A stretch of DNA of 50,736 nt from an uncultured Alphaproteobacteria bacterium (lineage in GTDB: Bacteria; Pseudomonadota; Alphaproteobacteria; CAAHEQ01; UBA3637). Below, in pieces: positions 6,282 to 47,225 of the stretch. The stretch is from positions 1 through 50,736 of the forward strand of contig CALXVS010000010.1 in assembly GCA_944392145.1 (NCBI GenBank). Direction: 5' to 3'. The position numbers and the translations under genes are program-made. Under the pieces are notes generated by a model. It was not told where the DNA came from. It worked only from the letters and a program-made list of their open reading frames with translations, and did not search any database. Within the stretch, counting starts at the first letter, position 1, and the number at the start of each line of letters is the position of its first letter.

Positions 6282-6356
6282 GGGTGTGTAGCTCAGCGGG
6301 AGAGCATTACCTTCACACGGTAGGGGCCGCAGGTTCAATCCCTGCCACACCCACCA
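6282..6356 (+). tRNA. tRNA-Val (anticodon CAC), prophage integration site
   Basis: A complete cloverleaf is visible: acceptor GGGTGTG/CACACCC, D arm GCTC/GAGC, anticodon loop TTCACAC with anticodon CAC, T arm GCAGG-TTCAATC-CCTGC, discriminator A and an encoded CCA (6354-6356). The phage recombined inside the anticodon-to-T-arm segment, so the 3' part and its terminator at this end are phage-supplied and restore a functional gene. Confidence 0.95.
6309..6336 (+). other. attL core
   Basis: 28 bp from ACCTTCACACGG to GCAGGTTC are identical to 44816-44843. The core covers the anticodon stem-loop through the start of the T loop, the usual target region for tyrosine integrases. Confidence 0.9.
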
Positions 6357-7706: not shown

Positions 7707-7735
7707 TTGACATTCCCTAAAAAAGACTGTATAGT
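7707..7735 (+). promoter_or_regulatory. Promoter of antirepressor leader 1
   Basis: TTGACA (7707-7712), 17 bp, TATAGT (7730-7735). It fires against the late operon. The expected RNA start is near 7742, over 200 nt before the coding start. Confidence 0.8.
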
Positions 7736-7741
7736 GTTTCG

Positions 7742-7947
7742 TAGAGGTTAAGAACTCTAATGCTACCGGTTAGCGCACTCGTTAGGGCGTTATTTTTATG
7801 TCATATGTGACCTCCCAGTCATTATGATAAAAGTTTATGCCAAGAGTGCGGTGAATATATTGAATAAACCCACGTGTGTAGTATCACGTTCTTAAACTCT
7901 TGGCACCTTACTATTTAAGGTAACTTTTTAAGAAGAGGATACTACCT
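7742..7947 (+). ncRNA. Structured 5' leader RNA 1 (c4-like, antirepressor control)
   Basis: This ~205-nt leader is non-coding. Hairpin 1 (stem GTAG 7741-7744 with CTAC 7763-7766) exposes TTAAGAAC (7748-7755). GTTCTTAA (7888-7895) can pair either with that loop or, extended as TTCTTAAA, with TTTAAGAA (7927-7934) next to the ribosome site. GTAGTATC (7878-7885) also pairs with GATACTAC (7938-7945), closing the site. TGCCAAGAG (7838-7846) pairs with CTCTTGGCA (7897-7905). The layout matches the co-transcribed c4 antisense RNA of P1/P7. Confidence 0.65.
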
Positions 7948-8751
7948 ATGACAAATTTAATCAAAATCACCGAGATTGAACAAGAACCGCGCATCCAAGA
8001 TATTGTTTTGGGGCGTGCTTTGGGATTAGCACGTGCACGAAAAATAAAAGATGTTATTGATGCAAATATGGCAGAATTATTGACTTATGGTCGTGCGCCC
8101 TTGATAAGGGCGGACGTGAAAATCGGCTGTGCAACCCGTAAGACAGAATCCTATTATTTAAACGAACCGCAAGCATTACTTATTTGTATGTTTTCACGGA
8201 CAGATAAAGCGGCGGAAGTAAGGAAAGAGGTCATACAGGCCTACATGGCATTAAAACACCCTCAAAACGACCTTGGCCTTGTCCCGGTCTCCTCCTACAC
8301 CCGACGTCTTCCCTCCGGACCGCGGGAAATCAAGTTATCCGAAAAAGCCCGGTCTGAAATCGGCGGGATTGTCAAGGCGTGCATCGGTTCGGCCTTAAAA
8401 GACATCACCGTGACACAAACGGTTGACCCCATTGGATACAATATCCCCGAATCGTTAAAGCAACCCGACGTCGTGCCGGCCGAGGTGGAAAAGGAGCTGT
8501 GGCGCCTGACCGAACAGTTGCATTACGGACTTCAAAAGCAACAACCGAAAGCACAAAACACATCGGTGCTGAATTTGTTTTACCTATTGCGGGCACTTAA
8601 AACGGTTTTAACCCGGTATCGCACCGTGCAAAACGAAACGTTGTTTGCCGTGGACATGATGAAAGGGGATAAAAACTATGAAAAGGACGAGGCTTTAGAA
8701 CGCATATACATCCTAAACGCCATGACGAACGGCGCGTTACGGGTGTGCTGA
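7948..8751 (+). CDS. Antirepressor-type protein A with shared C-terminal domain
   Basis: A 267-aa protein. Residues 1-105 form an N-terminal module (DIVLGRALGLARARKIKDVI ... YYLNEPQALLICMFS ... EVRKEVIQAYMAL) typical of phage antirepressor/anti-immunity proteins that are neither BRO nor Rha. Residues 106-267 are a domain shared with three other proteins here (19276, 39671, 42518), starting LGLVPVSSYTRR and ending TNGALRVC. It is transcribed against the late operon, next to the spanins. Such proteins usually counter the CI repressor or act on the host; the target is unknown. An RNA leader controls it. Confidence 0.75.
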   Translation: MTNLIKITEIEQEPRIQDIVLGRALGLARARKIKDVIDANMAELLTYGRAPLIRADVKIGCATRKTESYYLNEPQALLICMFSRTDKAAEVRKEVIQAYMALKHPQNDLGLVPVSSYTRRLPSGPREIKLSEKARSEIGGIVKACIGSALKDITVTQTVDPIGYNIPESLKQPDVVPAEVEKELWRLTEQLHYGLQKQQPKAQNTSVLNLFYLLRALKTVLTRYRTVQNETLFAVDMMKGDKNYEKDEALERIYILNAMTNGALRVC

Positions 8752-19275: not shown

Positions 19276-20427
19276 TCAGCACACCCGTAACGCGCCGTTT
19301 GTCAGGGCGTTTAAGATGTATATGCGTTCTAAAGCCTCGTCCTTTTCATAGTTTTTATCCCCTTTCATCATGTCAACGGCAAACAACGTTTCGTTTTGCA
19401 CGGTGCGATACCGGGTTAAAACCGTTTTAAGTGCCCGCAATAGGTAAAACAAATTCAGCACCGATGTGTTTTGTGCTTTCGGTTGTTGCTTTTGAAGTCC
19501 GTAATGCAACTGTTCGGTCAGGCGCCACAGCTCCTTTTCCACCTCGGCCGGCACGACGTCGGGTTGCTTTAACGATTCGGGGATATTGTATCCAATGGGG
19601 TCAACCGTTTGTGTCACGGTGATGTCTTTTAAGGCCGAACCGATGCACGCCTTGACAATCCCGCCGATTTCAGACCGGGCTTTTTCGGACAACTTGATTT
19701 CCCGCGGTCCGGAGGGAAGACGTCGGGTGTATGAGGATACCGGAACGAGGCCAAGCTCTTGTTGCGCCGGGGAGACATAGGCGCCGGTCTTGCGGATACT
19801 TGGTAGGACTTCCGAATAGACCCAGTCAGCAAAGGCTTGCGCTTGCGGTTTGTTAGAACGGAATATCAGGCGGTAGAGATTGGGTTCGTTGATGATTGTA
19901 ATTTGCTGCATTACAGAAAAGAACATAATTTCTTGGTTTATGCTAACCATACACCCCTTCGGTGGGTTAGTGGCTCTTGTCACATACACCCACAAGTTTT
20001 CTATATCACAACGATTTTTCCCATATTTTTTAAATTCTTCTTCACGTTGTTTCTTCCACCTTTTTTCCCGTTCTTCTTGCTCTTTCTTTTCCTCCAAGTA
20101 TTTTTTGTGATTTTCTTTGATTTGTTCACTTAGTTCATTGCGACAGGATTCTATTCGTCTATATCCTTCTTTAAGATGAGTTTTATAAATGAACTTTTGG
20201 AAATCATTATAAGAGGATTCAACTTCCTTTAATTTTTTTTCTGTTTTATTCAAGTATGCCATTTTTTCTGATTTCTCTAAAGAAATTTCTTGTTCATCAT
20301 GGCAATCATCATAAAAATACGAATAATTACTCCGACTGCCAACCAATTGCTCAATTGCATCATTCCTTAGATCAGAACACGCACACAAAGTTCCCAAAAT
20401 AATAAAACACGAAACTTGCTTTAACAT
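19276..20427 (-). CDS. Chimeric moron: lipoprotein/coiled coil fused to a truncated BRO module and the shared C-terminal domain
   Basis: A 383-aa frame in three parts. Residues 1-17 are a lipoprotein signal (FIILGTLCAC, lipobox TLCAC). Residues 18-~150 are a charged coiled coil (EEKKEQEEREKRWKKQREEE). From ~175 (ITIINEPNLYRLIFRS) comes the second half of a BRO-N domain without its first ~60 residues, then the shared C-terminal domain. The antirepressor part could not reach DNA if the protein is exported. It is either a recombination relic or a new envelope protein. It has its own promoter and is bracketed by hairpins in the tail operon. Confidence 0.65.
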   Translation of the reverse strand: MLKQVSCFIILGTLCACSDLRNDAIEQLVGSRSNYSYFYDDCHDEQEISLEKSEKMAYLNKTEKKLKEVESSYNDFQKFIYKTHLKEGYRRIESCRNELSEQIKENHKKYLEEKKEQEEREKRWKKQREEEFKKYGKNRCDIENLWVYVTRATNPPKGCMVSINQEIMFFSVMQQITIINEPNLYRLIFRSNKPQAQAFADWVYSEVLPSIRKTGAYVSPAQQELGLVPVSSYTRRLPSGPREIKLSEKARSEIGGIVKACIGSALKDITVTQTVDPIGYNIPESLKQPDVVPAEVEKELWRLTEQLHYGLQKQQPKAQNTSVLNLFYLLRALKTVLTRYRTVQNETLFAVDMMKGDKNYEKDEALERIYILNALTNGALRVC

Positions 20428-38156: not shown

Positions 38157-38456
38157 TTATTTTCTAACGACACTTGCTGTTAATTTAACACCAAAGTGCC
38201 GCATCACATTCATGACTGTCCCCAATTCCGGATTCCCATTACCGGAAAGTGATTTATAAAGGCTTGTTCGGCTCATACCCGTTTCTTTAGCCAATCGGCT
38301 CATCCCTTTGGCTTTAGCAATATCCCCTATCGCTGCCGCCAATAAGGCCGGATCATTTTCTTCCAACACAGCCGACAAATATTCAGCTATATCATACTCA
38401 TCTTTCAAAAATTCGGAGGCATCAAATTCCGAAACAACAATCTTCTTTTTTGTCAT
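38157..38456 (-). CDS. HigA-type (HI1420-like) antitoxin
   Basis: A 99-aa addiction-module antidote protein. The N-terminal arm (FDASEFLKDEYDIAEYLSAV) and the helix-turn-helix MSRLAKETGMSRTSLYKSLS match the HI1420-type antitoxin family, which bind the toxin and the operon promoter. It is encoded one base after the toxin, the HigBA order. GAGGTG precedes the ATG. Confidence 0.9.
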   Translation of the reverse strand: MTKKKIVVSEFDASEFLKDEYDIAEYLSAVLEENDPALLAAAIGDIAKAKGMSRLAKETGMSRTSLYKSLSGNGNPELGTVMNVMRHFGVKLTASVVRK

Positions 38457-38457
38457 A

Positions 38458-38748
38458 TCACACCTCTTCTTTCATTTTTCTTGCTCTTTTAATGTCTTTT
38501 GCCTGTGTTGACTTATTTCCGCCGCATAATAATAAAATCCAAGTCACACCTTTTTTCATAAAATACAACCGATATCCGGGTCCGTAAAAAATTCTTATTT
38601 CATAAAGGCCTGCCTCTATTGCTTTAAAATCACCCCAGTTACCTAAAGTAATCCGCCTGATTCGGGCAATAATAACGGCACGCGCCTTATCATCGTCCAA
38701 ATCCGCCAACCATTCGGCAAAAACACTTGTCTGTTGCACTCTTATCAT
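38458..38748 (-). CDS. HigB/Gp49-like toxin (RelE superfamily)
   Basis: A 96-aa toxin. FAEWLADLDDDKARAVIIAR, EAGLYEIRIFYGPGYRLYF and LLLCGGNKSTQAKDIKRAR are the hallmark of phage-derived Gp49-like RelE-fold toxins that cut ribosome-bound mRNA. The promoter at 38756-38784 places the RNA start at or one base before the ATG, so the transcript is probably leaderless. Confidence 0.9.
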   Translation of the reverse strand: MIRVQQTSVFAEWLADLDDDKARAVIIARIRRITLGNWGDFKAIEAGLYEIRIFYGPGYRLYFMKKGVTWILLLCGGNKSTQAKDIKRARKMKEEV

Positions 38749-38969: not shown

Positions 38970-39111
38970 ATCAATATAACACAACGCCGCTTGTATGGGT
39001 GCGAACATTCTATATCCCACGCGGACAGGGTAGCCCTCCTTTATCAGGGTATCTGGCAGAAAAGCCCGCGAAAAAACACAGAAAAACAGAGTTAGACGAC
39101 TGGGAGGTCAC

Positions 39112-39378
39112 ATGACAAACGAAGAAAAAGCACGCCAATATGACGCCTTTGTTGCCGCTATCCGGCGCAAAGCGGACGAAATCGTCGCCGATGCTGTCTA
39201 TGATCGGCTTTACGATGAAGCTGCCCCCACTCCGATGCAGGCGCTGGATAACTGGTTGGACGGATTGGACAACCTGTTTGCCGGTCGGCAATACGGCGCC
39301 GAGGCCGCATACGACATGATTGAAGCCATTGTTGCCGAAAATTATCCTGGCATCTATCACACCAAAAACGTCGCTTGA
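39112..39378 (+). CDS. Hypothetical phage early protein
   Basis: An 88-aa acidic helical protein (YDAFVAAIRRKADEIVADAV, YDRLYDEAAPTPMQALDNWL). I do not recognise it. It is the first gene behind the strongest early promoter, so it is likely expressed right after induction. GGGAGG precedes the ATG. Its end lies 70 bases before the next promoter. Confidence 0.7.
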   Translation: MTNEEKARQYDAFVAAIRRKADEIVADAVYDRLYDEAAPTPMQALDNWLDGLDNLFAGRQYGAEAAYDMIEAIVAENYPGIYHTKNVA

Positions 39379-39445
39379 AAGAGGCAATGGAAGATAAAAA
39401 ATGACTTTATCTATCGCATTTACAGAATTTTTTCACAAAAACTTG

Positions 39446-39475
39446 TTGACAATAAGCACCAAATGTGATTATAAT
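39446..39475 (+). promoter_or_regulatory. Promoter of antirepressor leader 2
   Basis: TTGACA (39446-39451), 18 bp, TATAAT (39470-39475). Confidence 0.8.
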
Positions 39476-39481
39476 GGGGGT

Positions 39482-39670
39482 AAGGCTAAACACCTTATTA
39501 CAAGCGGACTGTCCGCCCCGAAAGATTTGCGGTTATTTTTGTATCCGATGAATGTCGGGGGTGCAGAGAATAAAAGAGGATTCGTCCGAATAATCTCGCT
39601 CGTCTTGTATCGAGTGTTTAGCCCCCGGCGCCTGACCGGTTCAGGCCTTCTAAACAAAGGATACAAGAAA
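39482..39670 (+). ncRNA. Structured 5' leader RNA 2 (c4-like)
   Basis: Hairpin 1 (TAAGG 39481-39485 with CCTTA 39493-39497) exposes CTAAACA. GTGTTTAGCC (39614-39623) is the exact complement of GGCTAAACAC (39484-39493) and can also pair with CTAAACA (39650-39656) beside the ribosome site. TCTTGTATC (39603-39611) and TTGTATCC (39539-39546) each match the ribosome-site sequence GGATACAAGA (39659-39668). The roles match those in leaders 1 and 3. Confidence 0.65.
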
Positions 39671-40480
39671 ATGCAAGAATTAGTCAGCATTATCAATAAT
39701 CAAATAAAAACAACATCAAATATCATTGCGTCAACATTTGGCAAAGCGCATAAGGATGTTTTGCGCCGTATTGAATCGTTGGAAATCCCTGATGATTGGC
39801 ATCAGCGCAATTTTACGCCCATGCTTAAAACCGTTGATATTGGCGGCGGAGCAACTCGCCACGACAAAGCTTATGAAATCACCCGTGACGGATTTACGTT
39901 GCTTGCCATGGGCTTCACCGGCAAAAAGGCAATGGAATTTAAAATCAAATACATTGATGCCTTTAATAAAATGGAAGCGGCTTTAAAGGGACAAAACGAC
40001 CTTGGCCTTGTTCCCGTGTCCTCTTACACGCGCCGACTCCCGTCCGGCCCACGGGAAATTAAGTTGTCCGACAAAGCCCGCTCCGAAATCGGCGGGATTG
40101 TCAAGGCATGCATCGGTTCGGCCTTAAAAGACATCACCGTAACACAAACGGTTGACCCCATCGGATACAACATCCCCGAATCGTTAAAGCAACCCGATGT
40201 CGTGCCGGCCGAGGTGGAAAAGGAGCTGTGGCGCTTGACCGAACAGTTGCATTACGGACTTCAAAAGCAACAACCGAAAGCGCAAAACACATCGGTGTTG
40301 AATTTGTTTTACCTGCTCCGGGCACTTAAAACGGTTTTAACCCGGTATCGCACCGTGCAAAACGAAACCTTGTTTGCTGTTGACATGATGAAAGGGGATA
40401 AAAACTATGAGAAGGACGAGGCTTTAGAACGTATATACATCTTAAACGCCCTGACAAACGGCGCGTTACGGGTGTGCTGA
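39671..40480 (+). CDS. Rha-family regulator B with shared C-terminal domain
   Basis: A 269-aa protein. Residues 1-~108 are a Rha domain (TTSNIIASTFGKAHKDVLRR, AYEITRDGFTLLAMGFTGKK, AMEFKIKYIDAFNKME), found in phage regulators that interfere with lysogeny. From ~110 it carries the shared C-terminal domain, almost identical at DNA level to that of the BRO protein at 42518. It is preceded by a long RNA leader, with ribosome site AAAGGA. The hairpin CCGGACTGAACATCCGG follows the stop. Confidence 0.85.
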   Translation: MQELVSIINNQIKTTSNIIASTFGKAHKDVLRRIESLEIPDDWHQRNFTPMLKTVDIGGGATRHDKAYEITRDGFTLLAMGFTGKKAMEFKIKYIDAFNKMEAALKGQNDLGLVPVSSYTRRLPSGPREIKLSDKARSEIGGIVKACIGSALKDITVTQTVDPIGYNIPESLKQPDVVPAEVEKELWRLTEQLHYGLQKQQPKAQNTSVLNLFYLLRALKTVLTRYRTVQNETLFAVDMMKGDKNYEKDEALERIYILNALTNGALRVC

Positions 40481-41710: not shown

Positions 41711-42342
41711 TTATTCACACAATGCCGCAGCGCAGCCCGGAATGGTATGCCGTTCGGTTTGGGAAAATCACCGGCTCAACCTTTTATCAATTCATGGGAA
41801 CGGGCAAAACGGTTGAAGACCGCATTTTTGAAAAAGCGGCCGAACATTTAACGCATCAAGCCGCGGTTGACAGTTTTGAATCAATAGACACGGAACGGGG
41901 CAAAACCCTGGAAGATGAGGCCGCCTTTTTATATTCGGTTATGACAGGGCGTGACGTTAAGCAGGTCGGCTTTATTGAGTATAATGCTTATGCGGGATGT
42001 TCTCCAGACGGCCTTGTCGCCGATGACGGCATGATTGAAACCAAATGCCCCCGGCAAGCCGGCCATTTAAAAACCGTTATCAACGGCTTTATCAAACCGG
42101 AATATCGTTGGCAAATGCAATACAACTTGTTCATCGCAGACCGGAAATGGTGCGACTTTGTGAGTTACTGCAAGCCGTTCGGCAAGCCTCACATCATTCG
42201 GGTGGACCGCGATCCGGCATGCTCGGCCCGTATTGCCGAAAAACTGGAAGAATTAAGCGGCCGGATTCAAGAAATTATCAACATGTATAACGAAAGGAGA
42301 AAAAAACTTGTTGACAACATCAAATCATGTATGGTATATTGA
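41707..42342 (+). CDS. YqaJ/lambda-Exo-type alkaline exonuclease
   Basis: A 211-aa 5'-3' exonuclease. QRSPEWYAVRFGKITGS is the entry motif, GCSPDGLVADDGMIETKCP carries the catalytic Asp and Glu-x-Lys, and WQMQYNLFIADRKWCDFVSY is the conserved end of the core. With Rad52 it forms a two-gene recombination system. Its last ~11 codons contain the promoter for leader 3. Confidence 0.95.
   Translation: MIIHTMPQRSPEWYAVRFGKITGSTFYQFMGTGKTVEDRIFEKAAEHLTHQAAVDSFESIDTERGKTLEDEAAFLYSVMTGRDVKQVGFIEYNAYAGCSPDGLVADDGMIETKCPRQAGHLKTVINGFIKPEYRWQMQYNLFIADRKWCDFVSYCKPFGKPHIIRVDRDPACSARIAEKLEELSGRIQEIINMYNERRKKLVDNIKSCMVY
42311..42340 (+). promoter_or_regulatory. Promoter of antirepressor leader 3
   Basis: TTGACA (42311-42316), 18 bp, TATATT (42335-42340), embedded in the 3' end of the exonuclease gene. 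Confidence 0.8.
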
Positions 42343-42346
42343 AGTC

Positions 42347-42517
42347 CTAAACATCAACGGCGGTATTCGCCCCTGTCAGTCTGGCGACTTTTTTATGCCC
42401 AGTTTATGGGGGATGAGAACCGAAAATATATTGAATATCGGTCAGCGTCCGTTGACGTTTAGTGAGTCCCCCACCTCTCATTGTAAAAGGTGGCTTCTAA
42501 AAATCAACGGAGTTACC
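42347..42517 (+). ncRNA. Structured 5' leader RNA 3 (c4-like)
   Basis: The clearest of the three. CTAAACATCAACGG (42347-42360) near the RNA start and CTAAAAATCAACGG (42497-42510) at the ribosome site differ by one base. CCGTTGACGTTTAG (42449-42462) pairs with the first in 13 of 14 positions and with the second in 12 of 14. GGGGG (42408-42412) and CCCCC (42468-42472) can also pair. The leader thus holds a mimic of its own translation start region. Confidence 0.7.
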
Positions 42518-43339
42518 ATGCATAAAGCATTAACTATATTTAATTATCAAAACAATCAAATCCGCACCAAGTTAATTAACAACGAACCTTATTTTTGTGG
42601 TTTGGATGTTTGCAAAATCTTGGGCATTAAAAACAACCGAGATACTATTACCAGATTACACGATGGCGTCGTTATTGCCGACACCACCGATTCTTTAGGC
42701 AGGCAACAAAGCGTTTCGTATATTAACGAGCCAAATCTTTATAAAGTAGCCTTTCAATCGCGTAAACCAACGGCTGAACCATTTGTCAATTGGGTATGCA
42801 AAGAAGTCCTACCAAGTATCCGCAAGACGGGAGCCTATGTCACACCGGCGCAACAGGAGCTGGGCCTTGTTCCGGTGTCTTCTTACACCCGCCGTCTCCC
42901 CTCCGGCCCGAGAGAAATAAAACTCTCCGACAAAGCCCGGTCGGAAATCGGCGGGATTGTCAAGGCGTGCATCGGTTCGGCCTTAAAAGACATCACCGTA
43001 ACACAAACGGTTGACCCCATCGGATACAACATCCCCGAATCGTTAAAGCAACCCGATGTCGTGCCGGCCGAGGTGGAAAAGGAGCTGTGGCGCTTGACCG
43101 AACAGTTGCATTACGGACTTCAAAAGCAACAACCGAAAGCGCAAAACACATCGGTGTTGAATTTGTTTTACCTGCTCCGGGCACTTAAAACGGTTTTAAC
43201 CCGGTATCGCACCGTGCAAAACGAAACCTTGTTTGCTGTTGACATGATGAAAGGGGATAAAAACTATGAGAAGGACGAGGCTTTAGAACGTATATACATC
43301 TTAAACGCCCTGACAAACGGCGCGTTACGGGTGTGCTGA
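42518..43339 (+). CDS. BRO-family antirepressor C with shared C-terminal domain
   Basis: A 273-aa protein. Residues 1-~110 are a full BRO-N domain (IRTKLINNEPYFCGLDVCKI, LGIKNNRDTITRL, SYINEPNLYKVAFQSRKPTA, FVNWVCKEVLPSIRKTGAY). From ~115 it has the shared C-terminal domain. The second half of its BRO domain resembles the truncated copy at 19276-20427. Likely a DNA-binding antirepressor; the RNA leader controls translation. ACGGAG is the ribosome site. Confidence 0.85.
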   Translation: MHKALTIFNYQNNQIRTKLINNEPYFCGLDVCKILGIKNNRDTITRLHDGVVIADTTDSLGRQQSVSYINEPNLYKVAFQSRKPTAEPFVNWVCKEVLPSIRKTGAYVTPAQQELGLVPVSSYTRRLPSGPREIKLSDKARSEIGGIVKACIGSALKDITVTQTVDPIGYNIPESLKQPDVVPAEVEKELWRLTEQLHYGLQKQQPKAQNTSVLNLFYLLRALKTVLTRYRTVQNETLFAVDMMKGDKNYEKDEALERIYILNALTNGALRVC

Positions 43340-44754: not shown

Positions 44755-44815
44755 AATCAAAAATTTAATCTTAAGAAACATAGTAAAACAGGGCATTCTA
44801 AAAGATAGTTAAATA

Positions 44816-44843
44816 ACCTTCACACGGTAGGGGCCGCAGGTTC
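44816..44843 (+). other. attR core
   Basis: 28 bp identical to attL 6309-6336, ending at GGTTC of the tRNA T arm. The remaining tRNA 3' end is not adjacent; it follows after 113 bp. Confidence 0.9.
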
Positions 44844-44956
44844 GAACAAGCCGCAAGGCCGGCGGGAGACGGCCGGTTTTAATGCATTAAAATGCGGCGC
44901 GTTAATGTCCCGCAACGCGGGACAGCCCTTTAGGGTGAGCATTATATAATGCGAAT

Positions 44957-44976
44957 AATCCCTGCCACACCCACCA
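44957..44976 (+). pseudogene. tRNA-Val 3' fragment left at attR
   Basis: The T-arm 3' side, acceptor strand and CCA are identical to those of the intact tRNA, but are separated from the att core by a 113-bp insert within the T loop. Confidence 0.85.
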
Positions 44977-44986
44977 ATAAAAAAAG

Positions 44987-45010
44987 GCCGGTTTATCCGG
45001 CTTTTTTTAT
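44987..45010 (+). terminator. Original tRNA-Val terminator
   Basis: GCCGG (44987-44991) pairs with CCGGC (44997-45001), then a T run. It is repeated in the second unit near 45198-45221. Confidence 0.8.
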
Positions 45011-45249
45011 TGGTCTTGGATGTGCCGGATTGAACCTGCGGACAAAGCAGGTTCGAACAAGCCGCAAGGCCGGCGGGAGACGGCCGGTTTTAATGCATTA
45101 AAATGCGGCGCGTTAATGTCCCGCAACGCGGGACAGCCCTTTAGGGTGAGCATTATATAATGCGAATAATCCCTGCCACACCCACCAATAAAAAAAGGCC
45201 GGTTTATCCGGCTTTTTTTATTGGTCTTGGATGTGCCGGATTGAACCTG

Positions 45250-45732
45250 GCGGAAATGTTATCCCCGCCCGCAACACCCCTCCGGCCGTCATGCTTGCGA
45301 ATGCGAGGATCCAGCAGCACTGATACCGCTTTTCTTACCCCTTAACGCCCCACCAAAATAAGGACTCTTTGCCCTGGATACCCGATCGGAGTCGGGCATG
45401 ACGACGGTGGGGTGTCATGGACGGTGAAAGAACCCACCGCCCGCAACACCCCTCCGGCGGTCATCCTTGCGAAAGCGAGGATCCAGCAACACTGATACCG
45501 CTTTTTGGAAACGCGAGACATCCCCGCCCGTGAAAAAACCCACCACCTGCGACACCCCTTATGTCGTCATGCTTGCGAAAGCGGGAATCCAGGAAACATG
45601 AATTCCGCTTTTCTTACCCCTCAACACCCCGCCAAAATAAGGAATCATTGCCCTGGATACCCGCATCCGCGGGTATGACGTGAGGGGGGAAAGGATGCCC
45701 GATCGGAGTCGGGCATGACAAGGGGGAAAATG
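45250..45732. repeat. REP-like palindromic repeat mosaic
   Basis: Left hairpins near 45288-45314, 45459-45485 and 45565-45592; right hairpins of the GCCCGATCGGAGTCGGG-like type near 45378-45403 and 45693-45719, and of the type TACCCGCATCCGCGGGTA near 45658-45678. No gene. Confidence 0.85.
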
Positions 45733-45807
45733 TCACCCTTGCACAGACGAGAATTCAAAGAAAAATGCCCCCGCAGCAATAATCATACCGTATATTCGTA
45801 TTGTCAT
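45733..45807 (-). pseudogene. Remnant of a second prophage Rz (spanin) gene
   Basis: The minus-strand start MTIRIYGMIIAAGAFF parallels the prophage Rz start MTMRIYGLMAALVAVV. The frame soon runs into repeat sequence and stops after 24 codons. The flank AAACCTGTTGACA also resembles 7700-7712. It suggests a related prophage once lay here. Confidence 0.55.
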
Positions 45808-45856
45808 ATTTTCTTTTCCCATAAAAAAGTCCCAATCGCCAATTCATAAAAACCTG

Positions 45857-45885
45857 TTGACAGATAAGCATAAACGTATTATTAT
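45857..45885 (+). promoter_or_regulatory. Promoter of the Phd/RelE-type pair
   Basis: TTGACA (45857-45862), 17 bp, TATTAT (45880-45885). Confidence 0.75.
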
Positions 45886-45907
45886 TTACATAATGAACAT
45901 AATGTAA
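45886..45907. promoter_or_regulatory. Candidate antitoxin operator
   Basis: Inverted repeat TTACAT-10 bp-ATGTAA directly after the -10 box, positioned for autorepression by the antitoxin. Confidence 0.5.
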
Positions 45908-45925
45908 ACAAAAAGAGGTGTTAAA

Positions 45926-46180
45926 ATGACTCAAATCATTGCTATGAGAGAAGCGCGTCAGAATCTATCCGAACTTGTCAATCGTGTCGCTTATGGCAAC
46001 GAACGAATTTCTTTGACACGTAAAAATAAACCGGTTGCCGTATTGGTATCTTTGGATGATGCCAAAATATTGGAAGCGTTGGAAAATAAGGCTGATTTAA
46101 AAGATTTAGAAGCAATGATAAAAGAGGAGTTGGGTGAAACTGTCTCTTGGGAAGAAGCACGGCGTGAATTAGGTTTATAA
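45926..46180 (+). CDS. Phd/YefM-family antitoxin
   Basis: An 84-aa antitoxin. The N-terminal DNA-binding domain (MREARQNLSELVNRVAYGNE, RISLTRKNKPVAVLVSLDDA) is the Phd/YefM pattern. The C-terminal acidic helices (EAMIKEELGETVSWEEARRE) should wrap the toxin. AAGAGGTG precedes the ATG, and the toxin gene follows after one base. It is outside the prophage, between repeat mosaics. Confidence 0.93.
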   Translation: MTQIIAMREARQNLSELVNRVAYGNERISLTRKNKPVAVLVSLDDAKILEALENKADLKDLEAMIKEELGETVSWEEARRELGL

Positions 46181-46181
46181 A

Positions 46182-46475
46182 ATGTATCGCATCATTGTTA
46201 AAAAGTCAGTTATTAAAGAAATTAAAAATTTTCCTCTTCATATTAAAAAACAGATTGATCATACTATTCAATCTTTGGCAAAAGAACCTATTCCTGCCGG
46301 CGTCAAAAAAATAAAAGGATTGTCCCGTGATTTTATTAAACACATAGGGAGTGACTCTGTTTATCGTGTTCGTGTTGCAGAGTATCGGATTATTTATATT
46401 GTGTTTGAACAGGATATTTTAATTTGTATCGTTAAAATCGGTCTTAGAAAAGACGTTTATCGTTTTATTAAATAA
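46182..46475 (+). CDS. RelE/ParE-family toxin
   Basis: A 97-aa toxin: VKKSVIKEIKNFPLHIKKQI, then IKGLSRDFIKHIGSDSVYRV and RVAEYRIIYIVFEQDILICI, RLRKDVYRF-like end (GLRKDVYRFIK). The pattern KGL...YRVRVAEYRIIY is typical of RelE-type mRNA interferases; ParE action on gyrase is less likely. It is coupled to the antitoxin. Confidence 0.93.
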   Translation: MYRIIVKKSVIKEIKNFPLHIKKQIDHTIQSLAKEPIPAGVKKIKGLSRDFIKHIGSDSVYRVRVAEYRIIYIVFEQDILICIVKIGLRKDVYRFIK

Positions 46476-46504
46476 ATCCCTTAAAGTGTTGTGAAACACA
46501 TGTC

Positions 46505-47225
46505 TATAGTGGGGTGTCATGGACGGTGAAAGAACCCACCACCCGCGACACGCCTCCGGCGGTCATCCTTGTCCCCTCCCCGACCGTCATCCTTGTCTCC
46601 CCCTCCCCGTCATGCTTGCGAAAGCGAGGATCCAGGAAACATGAATACCGCTTTTTGGAAACGCGAGACATCCCCGCCCGTGAAAAAACCCACTGCCCTT
46701 GACGCCTCCCCGGCGGTCATCCTTGCGCAGGCGAGGATCCAGCAGCACTGATACCGCTTTTCCTACCCCTTAACACCCCGCCAAAATAAGGACTCTTTGC
46801 CCTGGATACCCGCATCCGCGGGTATGACGTGAGGGGGGAAAGGATGCCCGATCGGAGTCGGGCATGACATGGGGAGAAAATGTCATCCTTGCGAAAGCGA
46901 GGATCCAGCAGCACTGATACCGCTTTTTGGAAACGCGAGACATCCCCGCCCGTGAAAAAACCCACCACCCGCGACACCACCCCGGCGGTCATCCTTGCGA
47001 AAGCGAGGATCCAGCAGCATGAATGCCGCTTTTAGAGACCTTTGACATCCCGCCAAAAATAAGGATTCTTTGTCCTGGATCCTCGGGCCAAGCCCAAGGA
47101 TGACATGGAATGGGTTGTCCGCTATCGCGGAAAACGGACTCTTTGCCCTGGATGCCCGATCGGAGTCGGGCATGACGGAAGGGGAAAAGGATGCCCGCCT
47201 GCACGAGTATAACGAGAGGGGGGAA
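46505..47225. repeat. REP-like palindromic repeat mosaic
   Basis: Four left hairpins (near 46610-46635, 46714-46741, 46883-46909, 46987-47014) alternate with right hairpins of three kinds: GCCCGATCGGAGTCGGG (46848-46866, 47153-47175), TACCCGCATCCGCGGGTA (46807-46826) and CCTCGGGCCAAGCCCAAGGA (47081-47100). No gene is visible. Confidence 0.85.

Follow-up and report, generated by a model that had tools for sequence, protein, structure and literature searches.

What the leader of a prophage antirepressor gene does is the question raised by a window of 50,736 bp from an uncultured alphaproteobacterium. The gene, at 39671–40480 on the plus strand, belongs to the Rha family of regulators/antirepressors (PF09669, E 4.8e-26; PHROG Rha-like and anti-repressor), and the DNA in front of it, here called leader 2, carries short segments that recur as direct and inverted copies. 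A first-pass annotation had read these copies as an RNA decoy scheme. The reading preferred here, to which we give a probability of about 0.8, is that leader 2 (39446–39670) is a C4-type antisense module that keeps the antirepressor gene silent.

The locus lies within a likely prophage of about 6.3–44.8 kb. A 31-nt direct repeat (97% identity) occurs at 6306–6336, in a tRNA-Val gene, and at 44813–44843, beyond the integrase, and the two copies are likely the att sites. No DNA similarity to known phages was found. Two type II toxin–antitoxin pairs were recognized, a Gp49-like toxin with an HI1420-type antidote at 38157–38748 (minus strand) and Phd/YefM with ParE at 45926–46475 (plus strand). 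A perfect tandem duplication of 203 nt (44836–45249) adjoins the attachment site, and an intergenic repeat around GTCATCCTTGCGAAAGCGAGGATCCAG is present in many copies within 45265–47200.

Layout of leader 2

Leader 2 is read from the plus strand and contains, in order, a consensus promoter, a 5' target a1b1, a terminator-like hairpin, a folded antisense RNA and a second target a2b2 over the ribosome site. The succession of a1b1, antisense core, a2b2 at the ribosome site and antirepressor gene is the layout of a C4-type module. The predicted sigma-70 type promoter (TTGACA-18-TATAAT, 39446–39475) has 12 of 12 consensus bases, and transcription is predicted to start from it. Hairpin I of the predicted fold (39480–39499) holds in its loop a1, GGCTAAACAC (39484–39493), of which a', GTGTTTAGCC (39614–39623), is the exact reverse complement. 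Downstream of a1 lies b1, TACAAGCGG (39499–39507), which offers the b' loop its 5' target; the homologous segment pairs with loop B at other loci. The b' element, TCTTGTATC (39603–39611), forms the loop of hairpin B and, with the linker a', makes up a single antisense stretch that is directed both to a1b1 and to a2b2, the latter consisting of a2, CTAAACA (39650–39656), located 5' of the Shine-Dalgarno sequence, and b2, GGATACAAGA (39659–39668), the ribosome site that serves the ATG start at 39671. This ribosome site is matched by the antisense RNA at 16 of 19 nt. The predicted duplex of a'b' with a1b1 (-25.8 kcal/mol) is stronger than that with a2b2 (-19.8 kcal/mol).

The five segments that the first-pass annotation had singled out read exactly as given. 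Both of its anti-ribosome segments, TCTTGTATC and an additional 8-nt segment, TTGTATCC (39539–39546), are antisense to GGATACAAGA, the 8-nt one exactly. The 8-nt segment is less secure, with only a small excess among relatives: complementarity of the spacer to its own ribosome site averaged 5.80 over 90 loci against 5.36, the highest of 5000 permutations being 5.76. Chance expectation was set by 30,000 dinucleotide shuffles of 39480–39673. Of these, 156 yielded a comparable 10-nt inverted repeat, one the repeat plus a third 7-nt copy, and none the full three-copy scheme with an adjacent 9-nt anti-ribosome segment. Searching for the scheme with 8-mers yields many AT-rich chance matches, and the 8-mer rule alone was therefore not counted as evidence.

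Between b1 and the antisense RNA, a terminator-like hairpin (CCGC...GCGG, then UUAUUUUU; 39513–39540) has a U-run and is weak at -3.8 kcal/mol; a simple terminator scan finds none. It overlaps an alternative hairpin, GCGGA-CUG-UCCGC (39504–39516), which uses the GCGG of b1 and is a candidate antiterminator. According to constrained folding, the terminator strand would become available once antisense RNA occupies b1. Among 41 phage-like loci, 59% have a terminator-like hairpin between b1 and the element with an energy of -4 kcal/mol or lower, versus 11% of shuffles, an enrichment absent from the chromosomal group.

A frame open from 39401 to 40480 raises the alternative that leader 2 encodes an N-terminal extension of the Rha protein, with incidental repeats. 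This is scarcely credible and was rejected because that frame contains the consensus promoter, which places the ATG at 39401 upstream of the transcript. The Rha domain moreover begins at residue 14 counted from the 39671 start, and the RNA covariation and three-way pairing also speak against a coding function.

The predicted antisense RNA and its pairings across relatives

The folded core (39554–39629) comprises a closing stem, a hairpin A with an internal loop, and hairpin B, which is the fold of the sRNA-Xcc1 family. A permissive Rfam scan placed sRNA-Xcc1 (RF02221) at 39554–39637 over the full model (1–87) with 48.8 bits and E 1.9e-7, short of the gathering cut-off of 53 bits, while the elements ahead of Rha genes in viral relatives score 59.9–63.8 bits. 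Even at E 10 the C4 model (RF01695, cut-off 45 bits) leaves leader 2 unmatched, and neither isrK (RF01394; 5' domain included) nor c4-2 matches it directly; all three were set aside as direct matches. By score, leader 2 is a member of none of RF02221, RF01695 and RF01394, and what is claimed here is a P1-like mode of action. A model built from 17 sRNA-Xcc1-type elements (R1) scores leader 2 at 50.3 bits and leader 1 (7839–7904) at 54.4 bits, both being part of its training set; Rfam found leader 2 independently of R1. Two-sided changes occurred in 17 of the 21 R1 base pairs, in the closing stem and hairpins, a count reached by none of 500 shuffles.

Of 96 genomes of relatives, 37 contain the RNA, in as many as 12 copies per genome; phylum-wide, 58 of 398 genomes carry it. 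In many relatives the closing stem is followed by ACC(A), resembling a tRNA acceptor stem, and leader 2 has GCC there. Chromosomal copies in this bacterial family (L017, L014, L030, L105 and similar; C6, C18 and C34 in the source genome) are followed by lipoprotein and pilin-like genes, and the element frequently has a CCACC..GGTGG hairpin and a T-rich stretch behind it. Three copies of the RNA lie close together at L105, and at L142:24-1251 an sRNA-Xcc1 module is found about 250 nt past a CRISPR array. The seven copies in the source genome, and the many in relatives ahead of lipoprotein and pilin-like genes, are what would be expected if the RNA were kept mainly as a trans regulator of host genes. 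For leader 2 this is very improbable, given its place in a prophage directly before an antirepressor gene and the 16/19-nt match to that gene's ribosome site.

Across relatives, the loop of hairpin B (b') and the following linker (a') are complementary to the 5' segment a1b1 and to the ribosome site a2b2 of the next gene. These pairings were compared with locus swaps, which preserve composition, so that the matches are locus-specific. Over 75 non-redundant loci, the mean complementary run between the loop and its own 5' region was 7.61 nt compared to 5.13 after swapping (highest of 5000 permutations 5.61), and that between the linker and its own 5' region 6.93 compared to 5.10, with the provisos that related loci are not fully independent and that locus-specific matches do not by themselves show function. 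A set of 26 RF02221 loci sampled elsewhere in the phylum gave own and swapped values of 6.73 and 4.72, and of 8.31 and 5.42. In the ribosome-site windows of 90 loci, own runs averaged 6.32 against 4.96 (highest permutation 5.33), and duplex energies with the own ribosome site -13.9 against -10.7 (best permutation -11.8); the own site ranked first among the 90 only at some loci (median rank 23). Covariation, which the first-pass annotation had proposed as a check, is evident among the roughly 100 relatives, whose segments diverge while complementarity is kept.

The same holds at loci ahead of Rha genes. On three viral contigs (L036, L038 and L032), an element that passes the RF02221 cut-off lies about 100 nt ahead of a Rha gene, and L150 is an additional Rha case. 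In the three viral contigs a1, a' and a2 co-vary as GTAGAAAC/GTTTC/GTAGAAAC, GTAGCAAC/GTTGC/GTAGCAAC and CTGAAAGC/GCTTTCAG/CTGAAAGC, compensatory changes that keep the pairing. Loss of the pairings in related phages was absent among those found, as L036, L038 and L032 retain all three copies. Sequence and comparison together establish the layout, the core fold, the pairings and their locus-specific conservation.

Folded as a single molecule, the full leader 2 pairs its 5' half, with an anti-ribosome segment, directly to the ribosome site (z -2.7), which makes a switch acting only in cis possible, whereby alternative pairings within one mRNA would set translation through folding kinetics and no free antisense RNA would be needed. 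We consider this unlikely, since a compact conserved core with a covarying closing stem favours a released RNA, the founding member of the family is a separate RNA of about 88 nt on Northern blots (PMC2996969), and P1 C4 provides a precedent.

Three leaders ahead of three antirepressors

The prophage contains three such leaders, at 7.7, 39.5 and 42.3 kb, each before one antirepressor. Leader 1 (7707–7947, plus strand) has a promoter at 7707–7735, a1b1 at 7744–7775, a terminator-like element at about 7770–7796, the antisense element at 7839–7904 and a2b2 at 7928–7945, and precedes an antirepressor-like gene (7948–8751, plus strand; PHROG anti-repressor Ant, E 1.6e-4) with the shared C-terminus described below. 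Leader 3 (42311–42517, plus strand) has the same layout, with a promoter at 42311–42340, a1b1 at 42344–42366, a terminator-like element at 42367–42394, the antisense element at about 42407–42473 and a2b2 at 42497–42513, and its core scores only 8.8 bits with R1. It stands ahead of a Bro-N antirepressor (42518–43339, plus strand; PF02498, E 1.7e-19; PHROG anti-repressor Ant, E 1.6e-43). The leader of the open reading frame (ORF) at 39112 was also considered as leader 3; no C4-like core was found there, and leader 3 was taken at 42311.

The N-termini of the three target proteins (108–114 residues) are unrelated, and the C-terminal 159 residues are 98.7–100% identical and also show up as DNA repeats. 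This 159-residue domain occurs four times in the prophage, at 99–100% identity and with differing N-termini, at 8263–8751, 39992–40480 and 42851–43339 on the plus strand and at 19276–19755 on the minus strand, and had no strong homolog in 113 genomes searched, the source genome aside. The fourth copy (19276–20427, minus strand) combines it with a lipoprotein-like N-terminus and a fragment of Bro-N, and no C4-like element was found as a leader for this copy.

The first-pass annotation had suggested that each locus holds a private RNA specificity, and prediction and comparison support this for the three leaders. Ribosome-site duplexes with the own antisense RNA reached -18.0, -19.8 and -18.4 kcal/mol for leaders 1, 2 and 3, versus -4.7 to -9.6 kcal/mol for foreign combinations. 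At the 5' copies the own values were -18.5, -25.8 and -21.3 kcal/mol and the foreign ones -5.8 to -17.0 kcal/mol; orthogonality is thus weaker there. The leaders do differ in sequence while keeping the scheme, yet to call them unrelated was an overstatement, as the a1 core CTAAACA is common to leaders 2 and 3, which differ chiefly in the b element. Because the a/b pairs differ among the three leaders, each antirepressor would have its own RNA key.

Avoidance of cross-talk, as also proposed, agrees with the orthogonal predicted duplexes but has a candidate exception in leader 1, which contains at 7807–7820 a 14-nt segment, GTGACCTCCCAGTC, that is perfectly antisense to 39098–39111, the ribosome site of ORF 39112–39378. 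The predicted duplex has -33.8 kcal/mol, compared to a mean of -11.4 kcal/mol with 90 other ribosome sites. It is possible, judging by this match, that leader 1 controls this 88-residue gene in trans.

Proposed mechanism and comparison with known systems

The expression and processing of leader 2, the direction of control, attenuation and titration are inferred from the arrangement described above. On one transcript, a1b1 would be followed by the antisense RNA with a'b' in its folded core, then by a2b2, which covers the ribosome site, and by the gene. Transcription would be driven by the strong promoter at 39446, and the core (39554–39629) would be set free as a small RNA, with RNase P probably cleaving at the 5' end of the closing stem, as for P1 C4. 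The b' loop and a' linker would then pair with b2 and a2 on the phage's own mRNA and on that of an incoming phage, blocking translation of the antirepressor, which can rouse the prophage, so that lysogeny is kept and superinfection immunity conferred. By binding a1b1 in the nascent leader, the antisense RNA could also release the CCGC strand so that the terminator-like hairpin forms; the resulting early stop would constitute negative feedback. The short a1b1 RNA left by early termination could in turn titrate away the antisense RNA, in the manner of IsrK. "Decoy" may describe one of several roles of the 5' copy.

Extended to the whole sRNA-Xcc1 family, the proposal is that its members are C4-type antisense RNAs acting as on-board repressors of the gene behind them, whether antirepressors of several folds, the toxin SymE or surface-protein genes in small-genome relatives, with a feedback attenuator at a1b1. 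Since the three orthogonal copies of this prophage guard antirepressors with one shared C-terminal domain, leader and N-terminal domain would together form an exchangeable cassette. We put this wider proposal at somewhat better than even odds. The genes behind relatives' elements include Rha, Bro-N, KilA-N, P22_AR_N and SymE, and at two SymE loci (L128 and L148) b' matches the Shine-Dalgarno region. In a 2025 survey, the most widespread integron cassette of Xanthomonas was found to hold sRNA-Xcc1 together with symE; the RNA was reported upstream of symE with no mechanism given, its position suggesting "a divergent regulatory mechanism" (PMC12444791). Matches to C4, isrK and sRNA-Xcc1 close together in one Xylella genome were reported without being joined (PMC12189769). 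No paper joining sRNA-Xcc1 and C4 as one kind of RNA was found among the openly accessible papers searched, and as far as that search shows the link to C4 logic, symE copies included, is new. It offers a testable mechanism for a widespread small-RNA family, and the three antisense channels, predicted to be independent within one prophage, bear on how immunity circuits avoid interference and how their keys diversify.

The closest known layout is that of C4 (RF01695) with a1b1 (RF03163) in phages P1 and P7, where the immI operon is c4-icd-ant. In the P1 database entry, a1 and b1, annotated as putative C4 targets, are followed in turn by c4, a2, b2 and icd, and the order a1, b1, antisense RNA, a2, b2 and gene is common to leader 2. 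Both have an antisense core with a closing stem and two hairpins, and P1 GCGGACAACCGCAGATTTCCGATATTGCGGTATTTTTGTGTCC and leader 2 GCGGACTGTCCGCCCCGAAAGATTTGCGGTTATTTTTGTATCC are visibly alike. In P1 and P7, b' blocks a ribosome site, an antirepressor is controlled, and a/b differences set immunity, features to which leader 2 is likened; how C4 acts as an antisense RNA, its cleavage by RNase P and the P1/P7 specificity are summarized in PMC5320573. Leader 2 differs in its core sequence, which stays below the C4 threshold, in a spacing of only 3 nt between a2 and b2, in the Rha gene lying directly behind with no icd between, and in the presence of three copies per phage. In 57 genomes, five of six weak C4-model matches fell on sRNA-Xcc1-type elements, and the two families thus share a design; common descent is no more than a possibility, P1 C4 scoring only 7.8 bits with R1.

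With sRNA-Xcc1 (RF02221), leader 2 shares the core RNA, and members elsewhere show the same two target copies; it differs in scoring below the cut-off, and the family is described as an sRNA with no settled mechanism.

IsrK of Salmonella Gifsy-1 (RF01394) has a promoter, a short 5' RNA with its own terminator, and read-through into complementary RNA and an antirepressor operon (PMC4825925). There, the short RNA, which corresponds to the 5' copy, was shown experimentally to turn translation on (PMC4825925). Leader 2 might act likewise, with a'/b' sequestering the ribosome site in cis and a short a1b1 RNA (39482 to about 39540) binding a'b' in trans to switch the antirepressor on. The stronger binding of a'b' by a1b1 than by a2b2 and the terminator-like hairpin are in keeping with this, as is the match of the isrK model to a1b1 plus the following hairpin with its U-run in P1, where the Rfam C4 and c4-a1b1 models also match. 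The isrK model has no match in leader 2, unlike in P1; the leader 2 terminator is weak, and P1 C4, the closest layout match, represses. Activation of this type is a tentative reading, appreciably less probable than repression, with which it is compatible rather than mutually exclusive.

The layout also has a described parallel in phage P4, where replication genes are controlled. As described in PMC4825925, the P4 CI RNA lies between two complementary sites, seqA and seqC, on one transcript whose output is termination, the upstream copy serving as the termination target (as cited in PMC4825925).
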